Both the position numbers and the translations under genes were made by a program. From Thiohalophilus thiocyanatoxydans (lineage in GTDB: Bacteria; Pseudomonadota; Gammaproteobacteria; UBA6429; Thiohalophilaceae): 64,000 nucleotides of DNA. Positions 2,264-63,459 of this stretch are shown piece by piece (the stretch's first letter is position 1; each line of letters begins with the position of its first letter). The stretch lies in contig NZ_SOQX01000001.1 in NCBI RefSeq assembly GCF_004366735.1, positions 434,001 to 498,000 on the forward strand. Reading direction: 5' to 3'. The notes below the pieces were generated by a model, which saw only the letters and a list, made by a program, of their open reading frames with translations, ran no database searches and had not been told where the DNA came from.

Positions 2264-2434
2264 CGCAGGATCTAGGCTCTAGTGGCTAGGCCGTAAAGAA
2301 TACCCCCTCCCCCTAACCCCCTCCCTGTGGGAGGGGGAACCAATCTGTGCTCTTAGCAATCGTCCCCTCCCCTTCAAGGGGAGGGTTAGGGAGGGGTGAT
2401 ATAAGGGGCTAGCACCTAGGATCTAGCCCCTGTT
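2264..2434. repeat. CTAG-rich repeat segments flanking foldback element
   Basis: Six CTAG tetranucleotides occur in two short blocks, about 2269-2291 (ATCTAGGCTCTAGTGGCTAG) and 2405-2432 (GGCTAGCACCTAGGATCTAG then CCCCTG). They flank the foldback element at 2301-2403. Similar blocks occur near 981-1010, 3772-3806, 19096-19130 and 19342-19375. CTAG is usually rare in proteobacterial DNA, so the clustering is notable. Confidence 0.5.
2301..2403 (+). repeat. foldback element A, copy 1
   Basis: A roughly 100-bp element made of two adjacent hairpins: CCCCCTCCC-TGT-GGGAGGGGG and CCCCTCCCCTT-CA-AGGGGAGGG. They are separated by an AT-richer spacer containing TTAGCAA. The outer ends, TACCCCCTCCCCCTAACC and GGTTAGGGAGGGGTGATA, are themselves nearly inverted. 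It recurs at 9997-10116 in the same orientation and at 27311-27412 in reverse. Each copy stands in a spacer just after a gene. It contains no coding frame. Confidence 0.8.
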
Positions 2435-2475: not shown

Positions 2476-3081
2476 TTATTCCCCGGCCACGGCCTTCTGG
2501 ATTAACGGCACCAGCGGTTCGGGCAGGGTAATATTACCGGCCAGGGCGAACTGCTGGGCGTCGGGGGACATCTTGTTCCAGGTCTTGCGGATGATGTCGA
2601 TCCACTTCTCTTCGGAGTACTCGGGATGCTTGTTGGCGAAGGCCAGCATGTAATGTTCGATAAACACCAGATCGGTGACATCTTCCAGTAACTGGGTATC
2701 GGGATTGGTTTTCAGTCCACGTTTGGCAACGGCGGTTTTGACCCGTTCGATAAACTCTTCATCGTAGCCGGCCTGCGCCAGCAGCTCGCCGGCGGTCTGG
2801 GCGTGAAACTTGTACAGATCGCTGCGCCACTTGAGGTAGCCTTTACGATCCATGGGATAGGCATCGCGGGGGGATTTCCAGCGCTGGATATGCTGGGCGC
2901 GCACGGCCAGCTTCATCGCATCGTCAGCATCGGGAGCATAGCGATCGATCATTTCGCCCATGCGATAAGAGTAAAGCAGTTCTTTCGGCCATTCCTTTTC
3001 GCCATCGAATTCCATGTTAGGATCTTCACGGTTGGCGGCGTCAAAGAGTTCGATGGCTTTTTCATACTTGGATTGCGACAT
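2476..3081 (-). CDS. DUF4202 domain protein
   Basis: A 201-residue soluble protein that matches the DUF4202 family over its whole length. It starts MSQSKYEKAIELFDAANRED and contains the conserved RAQHIQRWKSPRDAYPMDRKGYLKWR block and the LLEDVTDLVFIEHYMLAF segment. The conserved His and acidic residues suggest an HD-like all-helical fold, which is inference. No signal peptide or membrane segment is seen. It is monocistronic in this window, and its molecular role is unknown. Confidence 0.8.
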   Translation of the reverse strand: MSQSKYEKAIELFDAANREDPNMEFDGEKEWPKELLYSYRMGEMIDRYAPDADDAMKLAVRAQHIQRWKSPRDAYPMDRKGYLKWRSDLYKFHAQTAGELLAQAGYDEEFIERVKTAVAKRGLKTNPDTQLLEDVTDLVFIEHYMLAFANKHPEYSEEKWIDIIRKTWNKMSPDAQQFALAGNITLPEPLVPLIQKAVAGE

Positions 3082-7911: not shown

Positions 7912-7942
7912 GCTGCGCATTGTAGCGCACAGACGCAGGACC

Positions 7943-7966
7943 GAGGGACGAGTTACGAGGGACGAG
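7943..7966. repeat. GGGACGAG short array (family F, copy 1)
   Basis: GAGGGACGAGTTACGAGG followed by GACGAG is a short run of the unit GGGACGAG. Related runs lie at 9965-9988 and 24345-24365, all in spacers at the edge of genes. The rest of this 184-bp spacer holds a half of the CCACGAAG-type repeat at about 8041-8067 (GTCTTGGCGTCCTGGTGG). Confidence 0.5.
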
Positions 7967-8095
7967 GTAAAGAAATGATGTGACCGACGGATATACCCCG
8001 ACCCATTTATTCAGGGACGCGATGCCCTCGGGTCAGTACCTGGTGTCTTGGCGTCCTGGTGGTGAAAGCGTATTTGGAGGCAGACGACAGAGGTG

Positions 8096-8935: not shown

Positions 8936-9949
8936 ATGCGGGTACTGGGCATCGAAACCTCCTGTGACGAAACCGGGATCGCCATCTACGACAGCGAGGC
9001 CGGGCTGCTGGGCCACGCCCTGTACAGCCAGGTGGCGCTGCACGCCGAATTCGGCGGGGTGGTGCCGGAGCTGGCCTCGCGGGACCATATTCGCAAAACC
9101 CTGCCCCTCATCCGCGAAGTGATGACTCACTCCAACACGGGCGAGGGGGGTATCGACGGCATTGCCTACACCGCCGGGCCGGGCCTGCTCGGGGCGCTGC
9201 TGGTGGGGGCGGGCATCGCCCGCAGCCTGGCCTACGGCTGGGGCGTGCCGGCCATCGGGGTGCATCACATGGAGGGCCACCTGCTGGCGCCGATGCTGGA
9301 GCCCGATCCGCCCGAGTTTCCGTTCGTGGCGCTACTGGTCTCCGGGGGCCACACCATGCTGGTGCGGGTCGAGGGGATCGGCCGCTACGAGCTGCTGGGC
9401 GAGTCGCTGGACGACGCCGCCGGCGAGGCCTTCGACAAGACCGCCAAGCTGCTGGGGCTCGGCTACCCCGGCGGTCCGGCGGTGGCCAAACTGGCCGAAC
9501 AGGGGGATCCGGCACGTTTCCGTTTCCCGCGGCCGATGACCGACCGCCCCGGGCTCGATTTCAGCTTCAGCGGCCTCAAGACCTTCACCCTCAACACCTA
9601 TAAAAAGAATGAGGGGGATGAGCAGGCCAGGGCCGACATCGCCCGGGCCTTCGAGGAGGCGGTAGTCGACACCCTGGCGATCAAATGCCGCCGCGCCCTG
9701 CAGCAGACCGGCCTCACCCGTCTGGTGATCGCCGGCGGGGTCAGCGCCAACACCCAGCTGCGCGCCAAACTCGATCAGCTGGCCGAAAAAGAACGCGCCC
9801 GGGTCTACTACCCGCGCCTGGAGTTCTGCACCGACAACGGCGCCATGATCGCCTTCGCCGGCTGCCAGCGCCTGGCCGCCGGCCAGCACGAAAGCCTCGA
9901 ATTCACCGGCCGCGCCCGCTGGCCGCTGGCAGAACTTTCCGCCGTTTAA
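8936..9949 (+). CDS. tsaD: tRNA N6-adenosine threonylcarbamoyltransferase TsaD
   Basis: A 337-residue ASKHA-fold enzyme. The phosphate-1 loop region is [17 protein letters not shown], the metal-binding motif is [10 protein letters not shown] (about residue 110) and the C-terminal phosphate-2 region is [13 protein letters not shown]. With TsaB and TsaE it transfers threonylcarbamoyl to A37 of tRNAs that read ANN codons. It is divergent from rpsU, a very common gammaproteobacterial arrangement. The stop codon lies inside a perfect 10-bp hairpin. Confidence 0.97.
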
Positions 9950-9964: not shown

Positions 9965-9988
9965 AGGGACGAGGGACGAGTAACGAGG
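9965..9988. repeat. GGGACGAG short array (family F, copy 2)
   Basis: AGGGACGAGGGACGAGTAAC followed by GAGG. It lies between the tsaD hairpin and foldback element A copy 2. The related phrase CTCGTCCCTCGG occurs on the far side of the foldback element at about 10141. Confidence 0.5.
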
Positions 9989-9996
9989 TTTTCTTT

Positions 9997-10116
9997 TATC
10001 CCCTCCCCCTGGCCCCCTCCCTGAGGGAGGGGGAACCGATCTTCGCTATTAGCAAGATCATTCCCTCCCCTTCTAGGGGAGCACCCTGGAGGGCATAAAG
10101 GTTAGGGAGGGGTGAA
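9997..10116 (+). repeat. foldback element A, copy 2
   Basis: Same layout and orientation as the element at 2301: first hairpin CCCCCTCCC-TGA-GGGAGGGGG, spacer with ATTAGCAAGATC, then a second hairpin starting CCCTCCCCTTCTAGGGGAG. This copy carries about 19 extra bases (CACCCTGGAGGGCATAAAG) after the second hairpin, before the conserved end GTTAGGGAGGGGTGA. The element lies between tsaD and trmB. Confidence 0.8.
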
Positions 10117-10171
10117 TTAAATCAGCCTATACAAAACCGCCTCGTCCCTCGGCACACGAACAAAGTGAGTA

Positions 10172-10867
10172 ATGATGCCTGAAGAAAAACCGTTTTACCG
10201 CCGCATCCGCAGTTTCGTGCGCCGCGAGGGCCGCCTGACAAAAGGCCAGCAGCGGGCGCTGGAGGAGTTGTGGCCCCGCTTCGGGGTCGACTTCACGCCG
10301 CAGTTACTGGATCTGGATGATCTGTTCGGCCGCCAGGCACCGCGCATCCTGGAGATCGGTTTCGGCAACGGCGGCGCGCTGGCGCAGCTGGCGCAACAGC
10401 ACCCGGAGAATGATTACTTCGGCATCGAGGTCCATCGCCCCGGCGTCGGCAATCTGTTGCTGCATGTCGAGCAGGATCAGCTGAGCAATGTCCGGGTCAG
10501 CCAGCACGACGCGGTGGAGGTGCTGGAGCAGCAGATCCCCGACAACAGCCTGGATGCGCTCTACCTGCTCTTTCCCGATCCCTGGCACAAGAAAAAACAC
10601 CACAAACGCCGCATCGTCCAGTCCGCGTTCGTTGAGATGGTGCGAGCCAGGCTGAAAAGCGGCGGTGTGTTTCACATGGCCACCGACTGGGAAGACTACG
10701 CCGAACACATGCAGGAAGTGATGCGTGAATTCCCGGGTTTTGACAATACCGCCGGCGAGGGCAAGTTCAGCCCCCGCCCTGACTACCGGCCGCAGACCAA
10801 GTTCGAACAGCGCGGCCAGAAGCTCGGCCACGGCGTGTGGGATCTGATCTATCGTAAGAAAGGTTAG
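10172..10867 (+). CDS. trmB: tRNA (guanine-N7)-methyltransferase TrmB
   Basis: A 231-residue SAM-dependent enzyme that makes m7G46 in tRNA. The SAM-binding motif is [17 protein letters not shown] (about residues 50-66), and the catalytic family signature is [19 protein letters not shown]. The N-terminal basic stretch [18 protein letters not shown] is typical. Two consecutive ATG codons (10172, 10175) are possible starts. It is not clearly linked in an operon; long repeat-bearing spacers flank it on both sides. Confidence 0.95.
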
Positions 10868-10887
10868 GGCTGGATTTTGATAAAAAG

Positions 10888-11352
10888 CTGAACCACGAAG
10901 ACACGAAGACACGAAGAAAAAATAAATTTATTACTTCGAGACTTCGTGGTAATAAGGCGTAGGTCACGCTGGCGATAGCCTGCGTGACATCCGGCACCCT
11001 ACACTGAGAGGTGGCGGTTGTTCGATAAATGCCCGATATCGCCTTACTTTATCGGGCCTACGAGAGAGGCGCGGATTTTTATAGAAATTTAACCACGAAG
11101 ACACCAAGACACGAAGAAAAACAAATCAATGAAACTTTGTGTCTTGGCGTCTTGGTGGTGAAATGGTTTCAAGGTGTAGGTCACGCTGGCGATAGCCTGC
11201 GTGACATCCGTCTACTAGAGCAATGCCCGATATCGCCTTGCTTTATCGGGCCTACGAGTGAGGCGCGGGTTTTTATAAAACTTCACCACGAAGGTACGAA
11301 GACACGAAGAAAAATAAATTCATTACTTCGAGACTTCGCGTCTTCGTGGTAA
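10888..11352. repeat. composite repeat array of B, D and E elements
   Basis: The 510-bp spacer after trmB (10868-11377) holds no gene. It is a partial tandem array with a period of about 195-200 bp. CCACGAAG inverted repeats (family B) lie at 10891-10951, 11091-11163 and 11285-11351. Family D, GTAG-headed hairpins in plus orientation (GTAGGTCACGC, then a loop, then GCGTGAC), lie at 10959-10993 and 11176-11210. Family E, the same kind of element in minus orientation (ATGCCCGATATCGCC ... CGGGCCTAC), lie at 11029-11063 and 11223-11257. The D and E elements face each other as in BIMEs. Confidence 0.75.
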
Positions 11353-18912: not shown

Positions 18913-19400
18913 GTAGGCCGTACATCGCACCCTTCGGGCATAAATTCCGCGGTGTCCGGCAATCGGGGATGCCCGATACCGCTTTGCTATATCGGGCCTA
19001 CAAATTAAAGTTGCGTAGGTCACGCTGGCGGTAGCCTGCGTGACATCCATCCGATAGAGAGAATGTCAGGTCGCGTCACGAAACCTGACCTGCGGGGCAC
19101 TAGCCACTAGTCGCTAGAAACTAGCCCCTGTTGCCGCGCGACAGCGCGGTAACAAGTCGGTAGGCCGGACATAGCAACGCGGTGTCCGGCAATCGGGGAT
19201 GCCCGATACCGCGTTGCTATATCGGGCCTACAAATTAAAGTGACCAGTCACTAGTTGCGTAGGTCACGCTGGCGGTAGCCTGCGTGACATCCATCCGATA
19301 GAGGGAATGTCAGGTCGCGTCACGCAATCTGACCTGCGGGGCACAAGCCACTAGTCGCTAGAAACTAGCCCCTGTTACGGCGCGATAGTGCCGTAACAAG
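18913..19400. repeat. two 244-bp tandem units with REP pairs and a copy of the rdgB 3' end
   Basis: The unit at about 18913-19156 is repeated at about 19157-19400. Each holds an inverted GTAG...CTAC hairpin pair (18913-19001; 19160-19231), a D-type hairpin GTAGGTCACGCTGGCGGTAG (19015; 19259), a GTCAGGTCGCGTCACG segment, a CTAG-rich block, and the sequence that in the second unit is the last 12 codons of rdgB. A few indels separate the copies, including 14 extra bases in the second. The 628-bp region between ompW and rdgB has no gene. Confidence 0.8.
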
Positions 19401-20763: not shown

Positions 20764-20911
20764 CAACGCAGAGGCGCGGAGGCGCAAAGGGCGCAGAGGA
20801 CTTATCATTATGTGTCGAGAAACGGGTAAAAATTGAAACGCTGAAATATCAAAATTTCCAGGAAAGACAAATTTTTCTTTGCGTTCTCTGCGTCTCTGCG
20901 CCTCTGCGTTA
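20764..20911. repeat. CGCAGAGG long inverted repeat (family C, copy 1)
   Basis: The left arm is AACGCAGAGGCGCGGAGGCG with GCAAAGGGCGCAGAG following. The right arm ends CTCTGCGTCTCTGCGCCTCTGCGTT. The arms are built from the unit CGCAGAGG(C/A) and are separated by about 75 bp without a gene. The repeat lies between the PP2C gene and rph. Other copies are at 41559-41711 and 63198-63459, with a half at 39115-39143. Confidence 0.7.
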
Positions 20912-20927
20912 AGATCTTTTCCGAACC

Positions 20928-23686: not shown

Positions 23687-24344
<658 letters not shown>

Positions 24345-24346
<2 letters not shown>

Positions 24347-24365
24347 CGAGGGACGAGGGACGAGG
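24345..24365. repeat. GGGACGAG short array (family F, copy 3)
   Basis: GACGAGGGACGAGGGACGAG lies immediately after the gmk stop codon. In the same spacer, about 24388-24436, a degenerate relative of the REP pairs is seen (CAGGCCGGATATCGTGACGC, GTGTCCGGAAATCGGGGA). Confidence 0.5.
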
Positions 24366-24494
24366 AGAGCCCCCCTTCTGCGCTCAGTGAGCAGGCCGGA
24401 TATCGTGACGCGTGTCCGGAAATCGGGGAGGGGTAGGAAAACAGCCCCGGCAAACCCCCCGTCCTCCTCGTCACTCGGCCCTGTTTTTTATGTC

Positions 24495-25126: not shown

Positions 25127-27220
25127 ATGCTCGATGAATACCTTGAGCCCGAACAGGTCGCCGAAGTCTACCAGGCCTACCTGTTCGGGGCCGAGGCCCA
25201 CGACGGCCAGCACCGTCTCAGTGGCGAACCCTATATCACCCATCCCATTGCCGTTGCCCGCATCCTGGCGGAGCTGCGGGTCGATCACCTCAGCATCATG
25301 GCGGCCATCCTGCATGATGTGATTGAGGACACCAAGGTCCCCAAGGAGATGGTGGAAAAACGTTTCGGCAAGCATATCGCCGAACTGGTCGACGGCGTCT
25401 CCAAGCTTACCCATATTCATTTTGAAAACAAGGCCGAGGCGCAGGCGGAAAACTTCCGCAAGATGATGCTGGCCATGACCCGTGATATCCGGGTGATTCT
25501 GATCAAGCTCGCCGACCGGCTGCACAACATGCGCACGCTGGGTGTGATGCGCCCGGACAAGCGCCGGCGCATCGCCCGCGAAACCCTCGACATCTATGCC
25601 CCGATCGCCAACCGCCTGGGCATGAATAACGTGCGTCTGGAGCTCGAGGATCTGGGATTCAGTGCCCTGTATCCGCTGCGCAGCAAGATACTCGAAGAGG
25701 GATTGAAAAAGGCGCGCGGCAATCGCAAGGAGATCGTGGGCAAGATGGAGGAGACCATCAAATCCCGCCTGAAACAGGAAGGTCTGGTTGGCCGGGTCAT
25801 CGGTCGCGAGAAGCATCTGTACAGTATTTACAAGAAAATGCGTGACAAGCATCTCTCCTTCAGTGAGGTAATGGATGTCTATGCGTTTCGCATCATCGTT
25901 GACAAAGTTGATGCCTGTTACCGGGTACTGGGGGCGATCCACAATCTGTATACGCCGGTACCGGGCCGCTTCAAGGATTACATCGCCATTCCCAAGGCCA
26001 ATGGCTATCAGTCCCTGCATACGGTACTGATGAGTCCCTATGGTGTGGCCATCGAAGTGCAGATCCGTACCGAGGATATGCACAAGGTCTCGGAAGCGGG
26101 AATCGCCGCGCACTGGATGTACAAAACCAACGAAGGCATCAGCAACAATGCTCAGATGCGCGCCCGCCAGTGGTTGCACGAATTGCTGGAGATGCAGCAG
26201 AACGCCGGCAATTCCATCGAGTTTCTCGAACACGTCAAAGTCGATCTGTTTCCCGATGAAGTTTATGTCCTTACCCCGCATGGCGAGATCAAGGTGTTGC
26301 CGCGCGGCGCCACCGCCGTCGACTTTGCCTATGCGGTGCACAGTGATGTGGGTAATCAATGCGTGGCGGCCAAGATCGATCGCCGCCTGATGCCGTTACG
26401 GACCGTCCTGCTTAATGGTCAGACCGTGGAGATCGTCACCTCCAGGGGGGCGCAACCCAATCCGGCCTGGCTGGACTTTGTTACCACGGCCAAGGCCCGT
26501 TCCAACATCCGTGCTTATTTAAAAAACCTGCATATGGAAGAGGCCGTTCTTCTGGGGATGAGGCTGTTACACAAGAGCCTGGCCGCCCACGGTTTGTCAC
26601 TGGATAATCTGGACGACGATCAGGTGAATGCGATGCTGACCGAGTTCGGTTTTGAGAGCATGGAGCAGATGTTCAGCGAGATCGGGTTTGGTAATCAGAT
26701 GGCCATGGTCGTCGCACGGGTCCTGCTGGCCACCGAACAGGATGAGGTACATGATGATCAGGAGAAGGCCCAGGGCACCCCGCTGGCTATCAAGGGGACC
26801 GAAGGGACCGTGGTTACCTATGCCAAATGTTGTCGACCGATCCCCGGTGATCCGATCCTGGGTTTTGTGACCTCGGGACGGGGGATTGTAATCCACACCG
26901 AGGATTGCAAGAACGTGGCCGAATACCGCAATCGGCCGGAGAAGTGGATCGACGTCAAATGGGAAAAGGAGATCGAAGGCGAATTTCCCATCGATATCCG
27001 CATGCTGGTGCAAAACCTGCGCGGTGTATTGGCCAGGGTGGCCGCGAGTCTCTCCGAGATGGAAGCCAACATCGAAAACGTCACCATCGAGGAACGCGAC
27101 GGTCTGCACTCCACGCTGAGTTTTACCGTCTCGGTTAAAAACCGCCAGCATCTGGCGCGCATCATGCGCCGCCTGCGCAAGCTTGAGATAGTGTCCCGCA
27201 TTCATCGCCTGAAGCGATGA
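25127..27220 (+). CDS. spoT: bifunctional (p)ppGpp synthetase/hydrolase SpoT
   Basis: A 697-residue RelA/SpoT homologue. The N-terminal HD hydrolase domain has HDVIEDTKV (about 63-71) and KLADRLHNMRT. The synthetase domain has REKHLYSIYKKM and GRFKDYIAIPKANGYQSLHT, whose RFKD is the RxKD motif of bifunctional enzymes rather than the ExDD of RelA. TGS (about 375-435), helical and C-terminal ACT domains follow. It controls the stringent response. The visible ATG lies close to the family start; no earlier in-frame ATG, GTG or TTG was found before the preceding gene. Confidence 0.96.
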   Translation: MLDEYLEPEQVAEVYQAYLFGAEAHDGQHRLSGEPYITHPIAVARILAELRVDHLSIMAAILHDVIEDTKVPKEMVEKRFGKHIAELVDGVSKLTHIHFENKAEAQAENFRKMMLAMTRDIRVILIKLADRLHNMRTLGVMRPDKRRRIARETLDIYAPIANRLGMNNVRLELEDLGFSALYPLRSKILEEGLKKARGNRKEIVGKMEETIKSRLKQEGLVGRVIGREKHLYSIYKKMRDKHLSFSEVMDVYAFRIIVDKVDACYRVLGAIHNLYTPVPGRFKDYIAIPKANGYQSLHTVLMSPYGVAIEVQIRTEDMHKVSEAGIAAHWMYKTNEGISNNAQMRARQWLHELLEMQQNAGNSIEFLEHVKVDLFPDEVYVLTPHGEIKVLPRGATAVDFAYAVHSDVGNQCVAAKIDRRLMPLRTVLLNGQTVEIVTSRGAQPNPAWLDFVTTAKARSNIRAYLKNLHMEEAVLLGMRLLHKSLAAHGLSLDNLDDDQVNAMLTEFGFESMEQMFSEIGFGNQMAMVVARVLLATEQDEVHDDQEKAQGTPLAIKGTEGTVVTYAKCCRPIPGDPILGFVTSGRGIVIHTEDCKNVAEYRNRPEKWIDVKWEKEIEGEFPIDIRMLVQNLRGVLARVAASLSEMEANIENVTIEERDGLHSTLSFTVSVKNRQHLARIMRRLRKLEIVSRIHRLKR

Positions 27221-27310: not shown

Positions 27311-27412
27311 TATCACCCCTCCCCGGCCCTCCCCTTCCAGGGGAGGGGGACCTTGCTATTAGCACGGTCAGTTCCCCCTCCCGCAGGGAGGGGGTTAGGG
27401 GGAGGGGATATA
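27311..27412 (-). repeat. foldback element A, copy 3 (reverse orientation)
   Basis: The reverse complement reads TATATCCCCTCCCCCTAACC, then the hairpin CCCCCTCCC-TGC-GGGAGGGGG, a spacer with AATAGCAAGGTC, and the hairpin CCCCTCCCCTGGAAGGGGAGGG split by its loop, ending GGGGAGGGGTGATA. It matches the copies at 2301 and 9997 but points the other way. It lies between spoT and ridA. Confidence 0.8.
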
Positions 27413-27496: not shown

Positions 27497-27883
27497 ATGC
27501 CTCGCGAAATTGTTCATACCGACAACGCCCCGGCCGCCATTGGCCCCTATTCCCAGGCGGTGAAGGTCGACAACACCGTGTATTTGTCCGGCCAGATTCC
27601 GTTGATCCCCGAGAGCATGGAGCTGTTGGGTGGTGACATCAATGGCCAGATTCGCCGGGTGTTTGATAACCTCGCTGCCGTCTGCCAGGCCGCCGGAGGC
27701 AGTCTCAATGACATCGCCAAGCTGAATATCTTTTTGACCGATCTGAGTCACTTTCCGACGGTGAACGAGATCATGAGCGAGTACTTCGCCGAACCCTATC
27801 CCGCGCGCGCGGCTATCGGTGTCGCCTCGCTGCCCAAGGGGGCGGAGGTGGAGATGGATGCCATTATGGTTCTGGCAGAGTAA
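27497..27883 (+). CDS. ridA: RidA family enamine/imine deaminase
   Basis: A 128-residue protein of the YjgF/YER057c/UK114 family. It starts [20 protein letters not shown] and has [16 protein letters not shown], the [17 protein letters not shown] segment and the catalytic Arg region [20 protein letters not shown]. It hydrolyses reactive enamines made by PLP enzymes such as IlvA. GGAG stands upstream of the ATG. It follows spoT, as in many gammaproteobacteria, but the foldback element separates them here. Confidence 0.95.
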
Positions 27884-37136: not shown

Positions 37137-38332
37137 GTCTGATCAATCAGATGCTCAAGGATCTGGAGAATCGTCGCGCCGAAGCGGTGGAGTCACCGGA
37201 CAGCCCGTTAAAAGGGGTGAATCGTTACAACGTCGCGCGCCGGGGCTCGCCCTATCTGTTGTATGCGCTGGGGGGGCTGTTGCTGGTTCTGGTGGCGCTG
37301 GTTGGGTTTTTAGGCTGGGCCTATCTCAATCCGCCGCAGCCCGGGGCTTCCACGCCGCCGGTGGCCGCCGCAATGCCCGCCCCGGCGGAAGCACCACAAA
37401 CACCGCCCGGCAGTGATACGCCACCGGTCAAGACGCCGCTGGTAAAGGCAGAGCCCGAACCCCGGTCCGAACCCGAGCCCGAATCCAGGTCTGAACCCGA
37501 GCCCAGATCCGAGCCCAAACCCGAGCCCGAGCCCGAGCCCAAATCCGAGCCCGAGCCCGAGCCCAAATCCGAGCCCGAGCCCGAGCCCAAATCCGAGCCC
37601 AAATCCGAGCCCGAGCCCGAGTCCGGGGTTACCGCCAGGGCGCCGGCGTCGCCCGGGCCGGCGAAGCAGAAGACGGAAGAGCCCGCTGTTTCCGCGACAC
37701 AGGCCGGGCAGGATGACGGGCCGGTTAACAAACGTGACCGGCCGATGAGTGACGAACAGCGTGCCGAGCTGGCCTATAAGAAAGGCTATCAACGGGTTAG
37801 CCGGGACCAGCGCGAGGCCGGTGAGCGTTATCTGCGTGAAGCTTTGGCGCACTATCGGCGTCATCACGGGGCGCGGGAGCTGTTGGCCAGTCTGTATATC
37901 AAGAGTGGACGATATGTGGAAGCCGGGACGCTGTTAAAAGAGGGACTCGCGCTGGCACCGGGACACGCGTTGTTTGCCAAGCTGTATGCGCGGGTTATGC
38001 TCCAGCAGGAGAAGCCGAACCAGGCGATCGCCATACTGGAACAGCAGCCGCCGATGCCGGGGGTAGACAGTGAGTATCACGCGCTGCTGGCGGCGCTCTA
38101 TCAACGGACGGATCAGCATCTCAAGGCGGCAGCCACTTACCGGGATATACTTCGGGTGAATCCCCGTCAGGGTAGCTGGTGGATTGGATTGGGGATCTCC
38201 CTGGAACAGCTGGAGAAATATAACGAGGCGCGTGCCGCGTATCAGCGCGCAAAAGATCGCACCCAGCTGACAGAAAACCTTAAAGAGTATGTCGACAAAC
38301 GGCTGGCCGTCCTGGCCAATGCCGGAGGGTAA
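37133..38332 (+). CDS. mshN: MSHA biogenesis TPR protein MshN
   Basis: A 399-residue protein: short cytoplasmic N-terminus ([17 protein letters not shown]), one transmembrane helix (about 40-64), a Pro/Ala-rich linker, an EPEPKS repeat tract (about 105-165), then TPR helices (about 205-395; [40 protein letters not shown]). The order and start match MshN of the MSHA locus. It follows mshM with an ATGA overlap. The next gene is not mshE, so the usual motor and pilin genes do not follow here. Confidence 0.85.
37447..37622 (+). repeat. in-frame EPEPKS repeat tract in mshN
   Basis: The 24-bp unit GAGCCCGAGCCCGAGCCCAA (plus ATCC) recurs three or more times with variants, encoding [12 protein letters not shown]. 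It gives a stiff, charged linker that could span the periplasm. Such arrays change length by slippage or recombination. Confidence 0.85.
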
Positions 38333-62999: not shown

Positions 63000-63200
63000 A
63001 TGGCCGACAAGAAAGCGCAATCCCGTTCGTCCATCAGCATGCATGAAGGAATCGCGGTCTGGTGTGATTGCTGTTCCTGCGAGATCGAACCCTACTGGCA
63101 GGCGGTGGCAGACGAGCTGGGTATCGATCTGGGCAGTGACTATGAATCTAACAACGTGCCTGATAAGCCGGAGTCAATTCCCGGAGACTCTGGAAGTTAA
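63000..63200 (+). CDS. small Cys-containing protein of unknown function
   Basis: A 66-residue acidic protein starting MADKKAQSRSSISMHEG, with a CDCCSC cluster (about residues 22-27) followed by EIEPYWQAVADELGIDL. The Cys cluster could bind a metal. GGAGGT stands 6 bp upstream of the ATG, a strong reason to believe it is translated. Its stop codon TAA is the first three bases of the 36-bp inverted repeat arm. No family recognised. Confidence 0.6.
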   Translation: MADKKAQSRSSISMHEGIAVWCDCCSCEIEPYWQAVADELGIDLGSDYESNNVPDKPESIPGDSGS

Positions 63201-63459
63201 CGCGGAGGACGCGGAGTCGCAGAGGCGCGGAGAAATGAATTGTTATGTCGGTGTAGTCATTCTATTCGTGCGAGTTGACGCTGCGTAGTACGCAACCCGT
63301 ACTCATTCCGCAGGGCTGATAATTAACGCGGAGGACGCAGAGAAGATATTTTGTGGCCTCAGGCATAAGGCGGTGAGTTATTATTTTGTGCCATAACTCT
63401 TTTTCGCATTGGCAGCATTTTATTCTCCGCGCCTCTGCGACTCCGCGTCCTCCGCGTTA
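63198..63459. repeat. CGCAGAGG long inverted repeat with 36-bp perfect arms (family C, copy 3)
   Basis: The left arm (63198-63233) begins TAACGCGGAGGACGCGGAGT and ends CGCGGAGA; the right arm (63424-63459) is its exact reverse complement. A third, partial left-type arm TAACGCGGAGGACGCAGAGA lies between them at about 63322-63342. The 360-bp spacer between the small gene and rpoH holds no coding frame. Confidence 0.85.

Follow-up and report, generated by a model that had tools for sequence, protein, structure and literature searches.

The locus under study lies near the start of a 64,000-nucleotide stretch of Thiohalophilus thiocyanatoxydans DNA, referred to here as the window. Between the convergent 3' ends of a forward-strand gene at positions 1516-2259, which we take from its translation to encode a protein of the peroxiredoxin-glutaredoxin type, and a reverse-strand gene at positions 2476-3081, a foldback element was found at positions 2301-2403 (forward strand; copy 1 of the repeat designated family A). 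It is composed of a type 1 unit (2302-2336, reverse strand; purine strand GGGAGGGGG, tail GGGGGAGGG), an AT-richer spacer between the hairpins (2337-2363, with the motif TAGCAA at 2354-2359) and a type 2 unit (2364-2400, forward strand; purine strand AGGGGAGGG, linker TTA, tail GGGAGGGGT). On both sides of the element, CTAG-type heptamers were recognized by eye (left, 2269-2290; right, 2405-2430), with an inverted-flank score not above that of shuffled flanks (6 vs. 6.0).

All three copies reported in the initial annotation were confirmed in the window sequence. Copy 2 (about 9997-10117, forward strand) is located between a gene ending at position 9949 and a gene starting at position 10172, and copy 3 (about 27311-27410, reversed) between a gene ending at 27220 and a gene starting at 27497. 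In copy 2, the type 1 unit (9998-10032, reverse strand) is followed by a type 2 unit (10062-10117, forward strand) that is split by an 18-nt insert, CACCCTGGAGGGCATAAA, at positions 10082-10099. This copy is bordered by an ACGAG heptamer array on the left (9966-9988) and by a CTCGT array, i.e., the inverted form, on the right (10138-10155), with an inverted-flank score of 11 compared with 5.5 for shuffled flanks. Copy 3 starts with the type 2 unit (27312-27348, reverse strand; linker CCG, tail GGGAGGGGT) and ends with the type 1 unit (27375-27409, forward strand), and its inverted-flank score is 6. Two hairpins and the TAGCAA motif in the spacer are present in all three copies, as described before. 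The left end is ATACCCC in copy 1 and TATCCCC in copies 2 and 3; the right end is GGGGTGATATAA in copies 1 and 3 and GGGGTGAATTAA in copy 2. Scanning the window against Rfam returned no match at gathering score except one tRNA, and only sub-threshold matches were obtained for positions 2260-2450.

An alignment of 16 doublets from the T. thiocyanatoxydans genome, all with tails outward (alignment A1), largely bore out the statement that loop bases vary while stems stay perfect, since 99.0% of the hairpin cells are paired. The statement fails at copy 2, where the 18-nt insert splits the second hairpin. Inserts of this kind, with small length differences, are present in five of the other 15 doublets. 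In three copies elsewhere in the genome (L018, L020 and L027), hairpin 1 is broken up by an additional short palindrome, GGCTCGGGCATCCTGC...GGACTCGT or a close variant of it.

The basic unit of the repeat comprises about 37 nt: a C-rich hairpin, whose loop mostly measures 3 nt, is joined by a 3-nt linker to a G-rich tail, as exemplified by CCCTCCCCT TCA AGGGGAGGG TTA GGGAGGGGT GAT. Among 50 units of the T. thiocyanatoxydans genome, the linker is TTA in 24, CCA in eight, TCA in five, CTA and GTA in four each and another triplet in five. Each family A element represents two such units in inverted arrangement, in which type 1 is combined with type 2, the latter joining AGGGGAGGG to a tail of the form GGG[A/T]GGGGT. 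The hairpins point inward over the spacer and the tails outward, so that each DNA strand carries exactly one unit with a G-rich tail. Applying a parser that requires both arms to be intact, eight pairs were obtained from the T. thiocyanatoxydans genome, all of them tails-outward with spacers of 24-28 nt, and two pairs, likewise tails-outward, from a genome of the same genus (G001). Other relatives yielded 32 tails-inward pairs (26 of them 12-18 nt apart) and four tails-outward pairs, counts that are biased because some of the stretches had been chosen for BLAST hits of tails-inward appearance. Furthermore, single units form tandem arrays with a spacing of roughly 110-118 nt and other palindromes in between.

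The repeat extends well beyond the window, with matches far exceeding chance. Copy 1 with its flanks gave 52 BLAST matches within its own genome (best non-self E-value 1.7e-33), and a covariance model built from 40 units of this genome identified at least 66 matches at E ≤ 0.001 among the best 150 of 1467 candidates scored, one of them (C2:157848) being the reverse reading of another. The window copies thus belong to a genomic family of some 65 short units, and the further copies to be expected of a repeat family were recovered. Matches to the unit model were also found in 32 of 40 genomes of the taxonomic family, T. thiocyanatoxydans included, with numbers ranging from one to at least 150, the latter in G011. 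Among assembled genome contigs, the exact unit pattern occurred in 40 stretches from eight record sets, whose titles refer to metagenome-assembled genomes of Gammaproteobacteria, Chromatiales or Ectothiorhodospiraceae; the sole exact match outside gammaproteobacterial titles originates from Marinicauda salina (L139). The exact tails-outward doublet pattern was found in none of the contig stretches in a search from which the own genome was possibly excluded. Comparison of copy 1 with plasmids, phages and E. coli genomes gave no BLAST match at an E-value of 1e-5, which is weak evidence because the low-complexity filter was on.

The G-rich tail mirrors the purine strand of the hairpin that precedes it, which is the layout of a purine-motif intrastrand triplex. 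In particular, the class II arrangement known from TM/PIT repeats, namely a C-rich stem, a short loop, a G-rich stem, a second loop of about 3 nt and an antiparallel third strand, is present. Triplets of the types G.GC, A.AT and T.AT were regarded as triplex-compatible. In order to evaluate the linker, perfect C-rich hairpins were selected with no condition on the following sequence and were read on both strands, so that about half of the readings can carry a tail. At a linker of exactly 3 nt, 50 of 106 hairpin-strands of the T. thiocyanatoxydans genome showed at least seven of eight compatible triplets, compared with zero to two at each other linker length between 0 and 7 nt. For the relatives, the corresponding values were 108 of 241 at 3 nt and at most four at other lengths. 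The linker-length counts, the linker triplets listed above and all counts given below for tail types, triplets, quadruplex motifs and the 23 genomes refer to perfect stems with a complete, N-free tail. Except for the linker-length counts, at least five G in the eight bases after the 3-nt linker were additionally required, and stems shorter than nine were dropped from the triplet, quadruplex and 23-genome counts. Units with a split tail, such as that of window copy 2, fall outside the filtered triplet counts.

The composition of the tail follows the hairpin type. The purine strand AGGGGAGGG mostly occurs with the GGG[A/T]GGGGT tail, GGGAGGGGG with GGGGGAGGG, GGGGGAGGG with GGG[T/A]GGGG, AGGAGGGGG with GGGGG[T/A]GGT, GGGAGAGGG with GGG[T/A]GAGGG and GGGGGAAGG, represented by one unit, with GGATGGGGG. 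Over 161 units, 1404 of 1449 triplets were compatible, whereas shuffling of the tails gave 1202.6 on average and 1253 at most, and reading the tail as a direct repeat instead of a mirror yielded 931. When each of 28 unique types was counted once, 209 of 252 triplets were compatible, compared with 185.2 (mean) and 202 (maximum) after shuffling. Across 23 genomes, G-C pairs of the hairpin are faced by G in the tail, and A-T pairs by A or T; all nine triplets are compatible in 150 of 172 units, but not in the remaining 22. Moreover, 48 of 69 genome-by-type representatives, for which named contigs were assigned to genomes by inference, were fully compatible, compared with a mean of 11.7 and a maximum of 22 in 5000 permutations, the remaining 21 deviating in at least one triplet.

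Covariation cells do not represent independent events because the purine-strand types are related by descent, and the triplet tests accordingly demonstrate association, not a number of independent events. Compensatory change, by which the initial annotation proposed to judge the repeat, is almost absent within the T. thiocyanatoxydans genome, where both sides of a hairpin changed in one of 287 cells (16 doublets), but it is present between species. The tail of the one copy featuring the two-sided stem change (L025) carries the T required by a T.AT triplet. The unit, its pairing, its copy number and the triplet-keeping change are all legible in the DNA sequences compared, and the pattern of substitutions suggests that the triple-helix layout itself is conserved.

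Regarding the genomic setting, the description of the element as lying always just after a gene applies to all three window copies but not to the genome as a whole, as one copy resides inside the pheT gene. Inverted flank-match scores of 11 or more were obtained for eight of the 16 doublets, with shuffled flanks scoring about 6. The doublet flanks mostly consist of ACGAG-type heptamers. A lax array scan of the window returned eight arrays of period 7 and five of period 8 (shuffled: 0.2 and 1.0), and a strict heptamer-array scan returned none of either period. A special status of period-7 arrays in the window was rejected, periods 6, 9 and 12 being in excess as well (7, 7 and 11 arrays). Degenerate 7- or 8-nt arrays were noted at 7932-7970, 995-1022, 19096-19125, 24335-24372, 10886-11348 and 20765-20913, some of them with an inverted partner nearby; at the orthologous sites in G001, the core can differ while the short-unit foldback persists. 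The window also contains an octamer-type inverted repeat (GCGGAG...) whose two 37-bp arms match perfectly (63198-63234 and 63423-63459, 188 nt apart) and a possibly coding 12-nt tandem array with 11 registered copies (37422-37637).

Ten of the 16 doublet sites were compared with the same-genus genome G001. Nine of them lack the element in G001 and one (L015:1149) is shared. The unit model had no match in the eight G001 stretches covering the nine sites, and control copies in G001 were detected. Instead, the nine sites hold, as judged by eye, heptamer arrays of the ACGAG, CTAG, GGCAGTT or TTGAAT type, octamer foldbacks resembling CACCAAGA or GCAGAGGC, or other palindromes. At the site of copy 3, GGCAGTT-type foldback ends are common to both species and family A is present inside them only in T. 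thiocyanatoxydans.

The copy at C2:361576 is located inside an open reading frame of 873 amino acids with domains of the phenylalanyl-tRNA synthetase beta chain (pheT, L015:5135-7756), which is the sole match to this synthetase domain in the genome. Compared with G001, this pheT stretch is 213 nt (71 codons) longer, the extra codons being contributed, within the B5 region, by an in-frame family A doublet together with heptamer arrays; of the B5 domain, only the second half was matched, after the insert. The pheT gene of G001 has a short in-frame ACGAG array at the same place.

The initial annotation regarded the repeat as a non-autonomous mobile or processed element. This is supported insofar as a multi-copy foldback family is involved whose presence differs between two congeners at nine of ten sites, as would be expected of an element that moves or turns over quickly; transposition events, target duplications and a mobilizing enzyme were not found, the transposase search being directed at Y1_Tnp. 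If the element were a REPIN, i.e., an inverted REP pair that a RAYT (Y1 tyrosine transposase) mobilizes in trans, the fixed-spacing inverted pairs of short palindromic units and the many singlets would be accounted for. The T. thiocyanatoxydans genome also contains six Y1_Tnp loci, two of which resemble classic RAYTs and are surrounded by GTAG repeats belonging to other families, and a RAYT could conceivably act in trans on repeats by which it is not flanked. However, the 3-nt linker is variable and GTAG occurs in only four of 50 own units, as only the GTA linker creates it. Furthermore, in a Y1_Tnp search of this genome and 21 others, the unit model had no match within up to about 1.5 kb of any of 56 loci examined out of 68 Y1 matches, some of these loci overlapping or being cut by contig ends, and thus no RAYT bounded by the same repeat was encountered. 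G024 and G029 have 22 and seven BLAST matches to the doublet consensus but no Y1_Tnp. Y1_Tnp is likewise missing from G023 and G033, in which the unit model matched 24 and 15 times, although these genomes are only 77 and 66% complete. In G015, which has seven Y1 matches, BLAST found no copy but the unit model matched 15 times. Mobilization as a REPIN is therefore considered unlikely.

Other repeats do accompany Y1 transposase genes in this genome. A GTAG REP family, GTAGGTCACGCTGGC..GCCTGCGTGAC, occurs in the window at 10947, 11164, 19003 and 19247 and in L013, and also flanks the Y1 transposase gene C1:618061. A second one, GTAGGCCCGATA.../GCCGGACA..., is found at 11028, 11222, 18948 and 19178 and in L014 and forms dense arrays around the Y1 transposase gene C1:238508. 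Further Y1_Tnp genes (L009/L012 and L010) possess short flanking repeats of their own, and next to the gene in L009, the beginning of the coding sequence is partially duplicated.

No better supported is an origin as a MITE with terminal inverted repeats that is moved by a DDE transposase and carries the C-rich core as cargo. In G011, with its at least 150 unit-model matches, a unit lies inside a 94-bp element with perfect 22-nt terminal inverted repeats (complete at L183:1936-2029, at a contig end; a second copy, in L184 from position 1812, is cut by the contig end), and the inverted flank match of half of the own doublets would fit such a structure. Yet these doublets have no constant terminal inverted repeat beyond the tails (86.4% of the tail cells paired), their flanking arrays differ in core from site to site, and plasmid or phage matches were absent from the search with the low-complexity filter on. 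Target duplications were not recognizable at the own doublets, where the junctions are unreadable in this respect owing to the other repeats that occupy the orthologous sites. While a MITE origin is improbable for the family as such, the G011 element, the only one seen with 22-nt terminal inverted repeats, indicates that units can also be carried along by MITE-like elements.

It was also suggested that the G runs could form quadruplexes, in which case four G runs should be the conserved feature. Quadruplex formation is possible: four runs of at least three G are present in 128 of 141 triplex-perfect units and in ten of 20 other units. The sequence changes, however, follow the triplex rules. 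Thirteen units from five genomes (one own and 12 from relatives) lost the quadruplex motif and nevertheless keep nine of nine compatible triplets, units of the AGGAGGGGG type being without the motif, and the A/T substitutions of the tail go along with the hairpin pair, a dependence that quadruplex formation would not call for. In addition, NMR analysis of the E. coli motif favored the triplex over the quadruplex (PMC4666352). Quadruplex formation is thus a very unlikely explanation for the conservation.

Ordinary base pairing was considered as well. Watson-Crick/wobble folding of copies 1 and 3 predicts that the tails pair with each other to form an outer stem around the two hairpins and a small hairpin in the center; the predicted fold of copy 2 differs because of its insert. 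In alignment A1, the outer stem is paired to the extent given above for the tail cells, with weak covariation in the linkers. Since the tails pair in a folding that is blind to triplexes, their conservation could partly reflect ordinary pairing, and triplex and outer stem may compete. Singlet units keep the mirror tail, for which an outer stem cannot account there.

A role as a transcription terminator or mRNA 3'-end stabilizer selected at gene ends would agree with the position of the three window copies after genes, copy 1 even between convergent ones, and with their strong RNA folding (z -3.4 to -6.2), but it is highly improbable in view of the in-frame copy in pheT and the nine of ten sites not shared with G001. 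In copy 1, the only copy scanned, no intrinsic terminator (hairpin and U tract) was called.

The repeat had been described as new-looking, which does not apply to its kind, as triplex-motif repeats including inverted pairs were already described for E. coli. The available text of Holder et al. 2015 (PMC4666352) reports TM_ECO/PIT intrastrand triplex repeats, cites earlier PIT work by Hoyne and Maher, and associates TM_ECO with instability. A related E. coli motif formed a triplex in vitro as determined by NMR, whereas DMS footprinting in E. coli in vivo revealed no stable triplex. According to the same text, TM_ECO shares with family A the class II purine-motif layout, a 3-nt second loop of the TTA or CCG types, a mostly intergenic location, a patchy distribution between close relatives and inverted pairs that combine two unlike units. 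In contrast, the stem of family A (CCCTCCCC/CCCCTCCC) differs from that of TM_ECO (CCCTCNCCC), and family A is often placed beside heptamer arrays, with one copy inside a gene. The inverted pairing is also opposite in orientation: the T. thiocyanatoxydans pairs are tails-outward with a 24-28 nt spacer, while four E. coli pairs, read from the Table 1 coordinates, are tails-inward. The TM_ECO pattern CCCTCNCCCN3-6GGGNGAGGGN3GGGNGAGGG is absent from all three window copies and has a single match (L041:916) in 33 stretches of the own genome and the window.

As far as the accessible parts of the respective publications allow comparison, family A resembles REPIN/BIME elements (PMC3116915, PMC3733652) in being built from short hairpin units that occur as singlets, in tandem clusters and as inverted dimers of two orientations, and differs from them by the lack of a conserved GTAG tag, the G-rich third strand and the absence of a nearby Y1 gene in the examined loci. 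Rickettsia palindromic elements (PMC10969869) are likewise palindromic repeats in frame within genes, a likeness that refers to their description and not to sequence, and that concerns a single intragenic case in family A. Intergenic heptamer arrays such as those beside many family A copies are described, as far as the text goes, for the GGGNATC quadruplex heptamers of Xanthomonas and Nostoc (PMC4692102) and the TAACTGA heptamers of Beggiatoaceae (PMC4679880), which have other cores and are not reported there to flank a triplex repeat in inverted orientation. Covariation, compensation or co-evolution is not mentioned in the accessible text of PMC4666352, and among the records listed in searches of the open-access literature no title or abstract opening dealt with this triplex family, which is weak evidence of absence. 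What would go beyond the known triplex repeats is the comparative evidence for triplet conservation, their kind itself being already known.

Based on these results, family A is interpreted, with a probability of roughly two in three, as a G/C-rich purine-motif intrastrand-triplex repeat arranged in inverted hetero-pairs, which spreads in a structure-driven manner as a mostly passenger repeat without a dedicated RAYT. We infer that the triplex may form in the cell when a unit becomes single-stranded, with the lagging-strand template and paused forks as the most likely places: the hairpin would fold and the antiparallel tail would fill its major groove by G.GC, A.AT and T.AT triplets. Such a structure could cause fork stalling, template switching or repair copying, by which units would spread and turn over. 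The units would then mostly be passengers inside repeat-rich islands, without a RAYT of their own, and would occasionally ride in other repeats. A more far-reaching version, in which the units constitute a replicator class selected for the DNA triple helix itself and the triplex palindrome spreads without a RAYT, is proposed only tentatively and appears doubtful at present.

While intrastrand DNA triplexes are clear in vitro, footprinting of E. coli in vivo did not reveal them (PMC4666352). The triplet-keeping natural variation described here makes the cellular relevance of the triplex a testable genetic question, and it also distinguishes between triplex and quadruplex as the feature that is conserved. 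If the more far-reaching version is correct, the triple covariation would represent comparative evidence that intrastrand triplexes form and persist in living bacteria, and a triplex palindrome would be able to nest by inverted heptamer arrays, in elements with terminal inverted repeats and in frame in an essential gene. The repeats are also markers of islands that change rapidly between T. thiocyanatoxydans and its congener; in one case, a repeat has entered a single-copy essential gene in frame.
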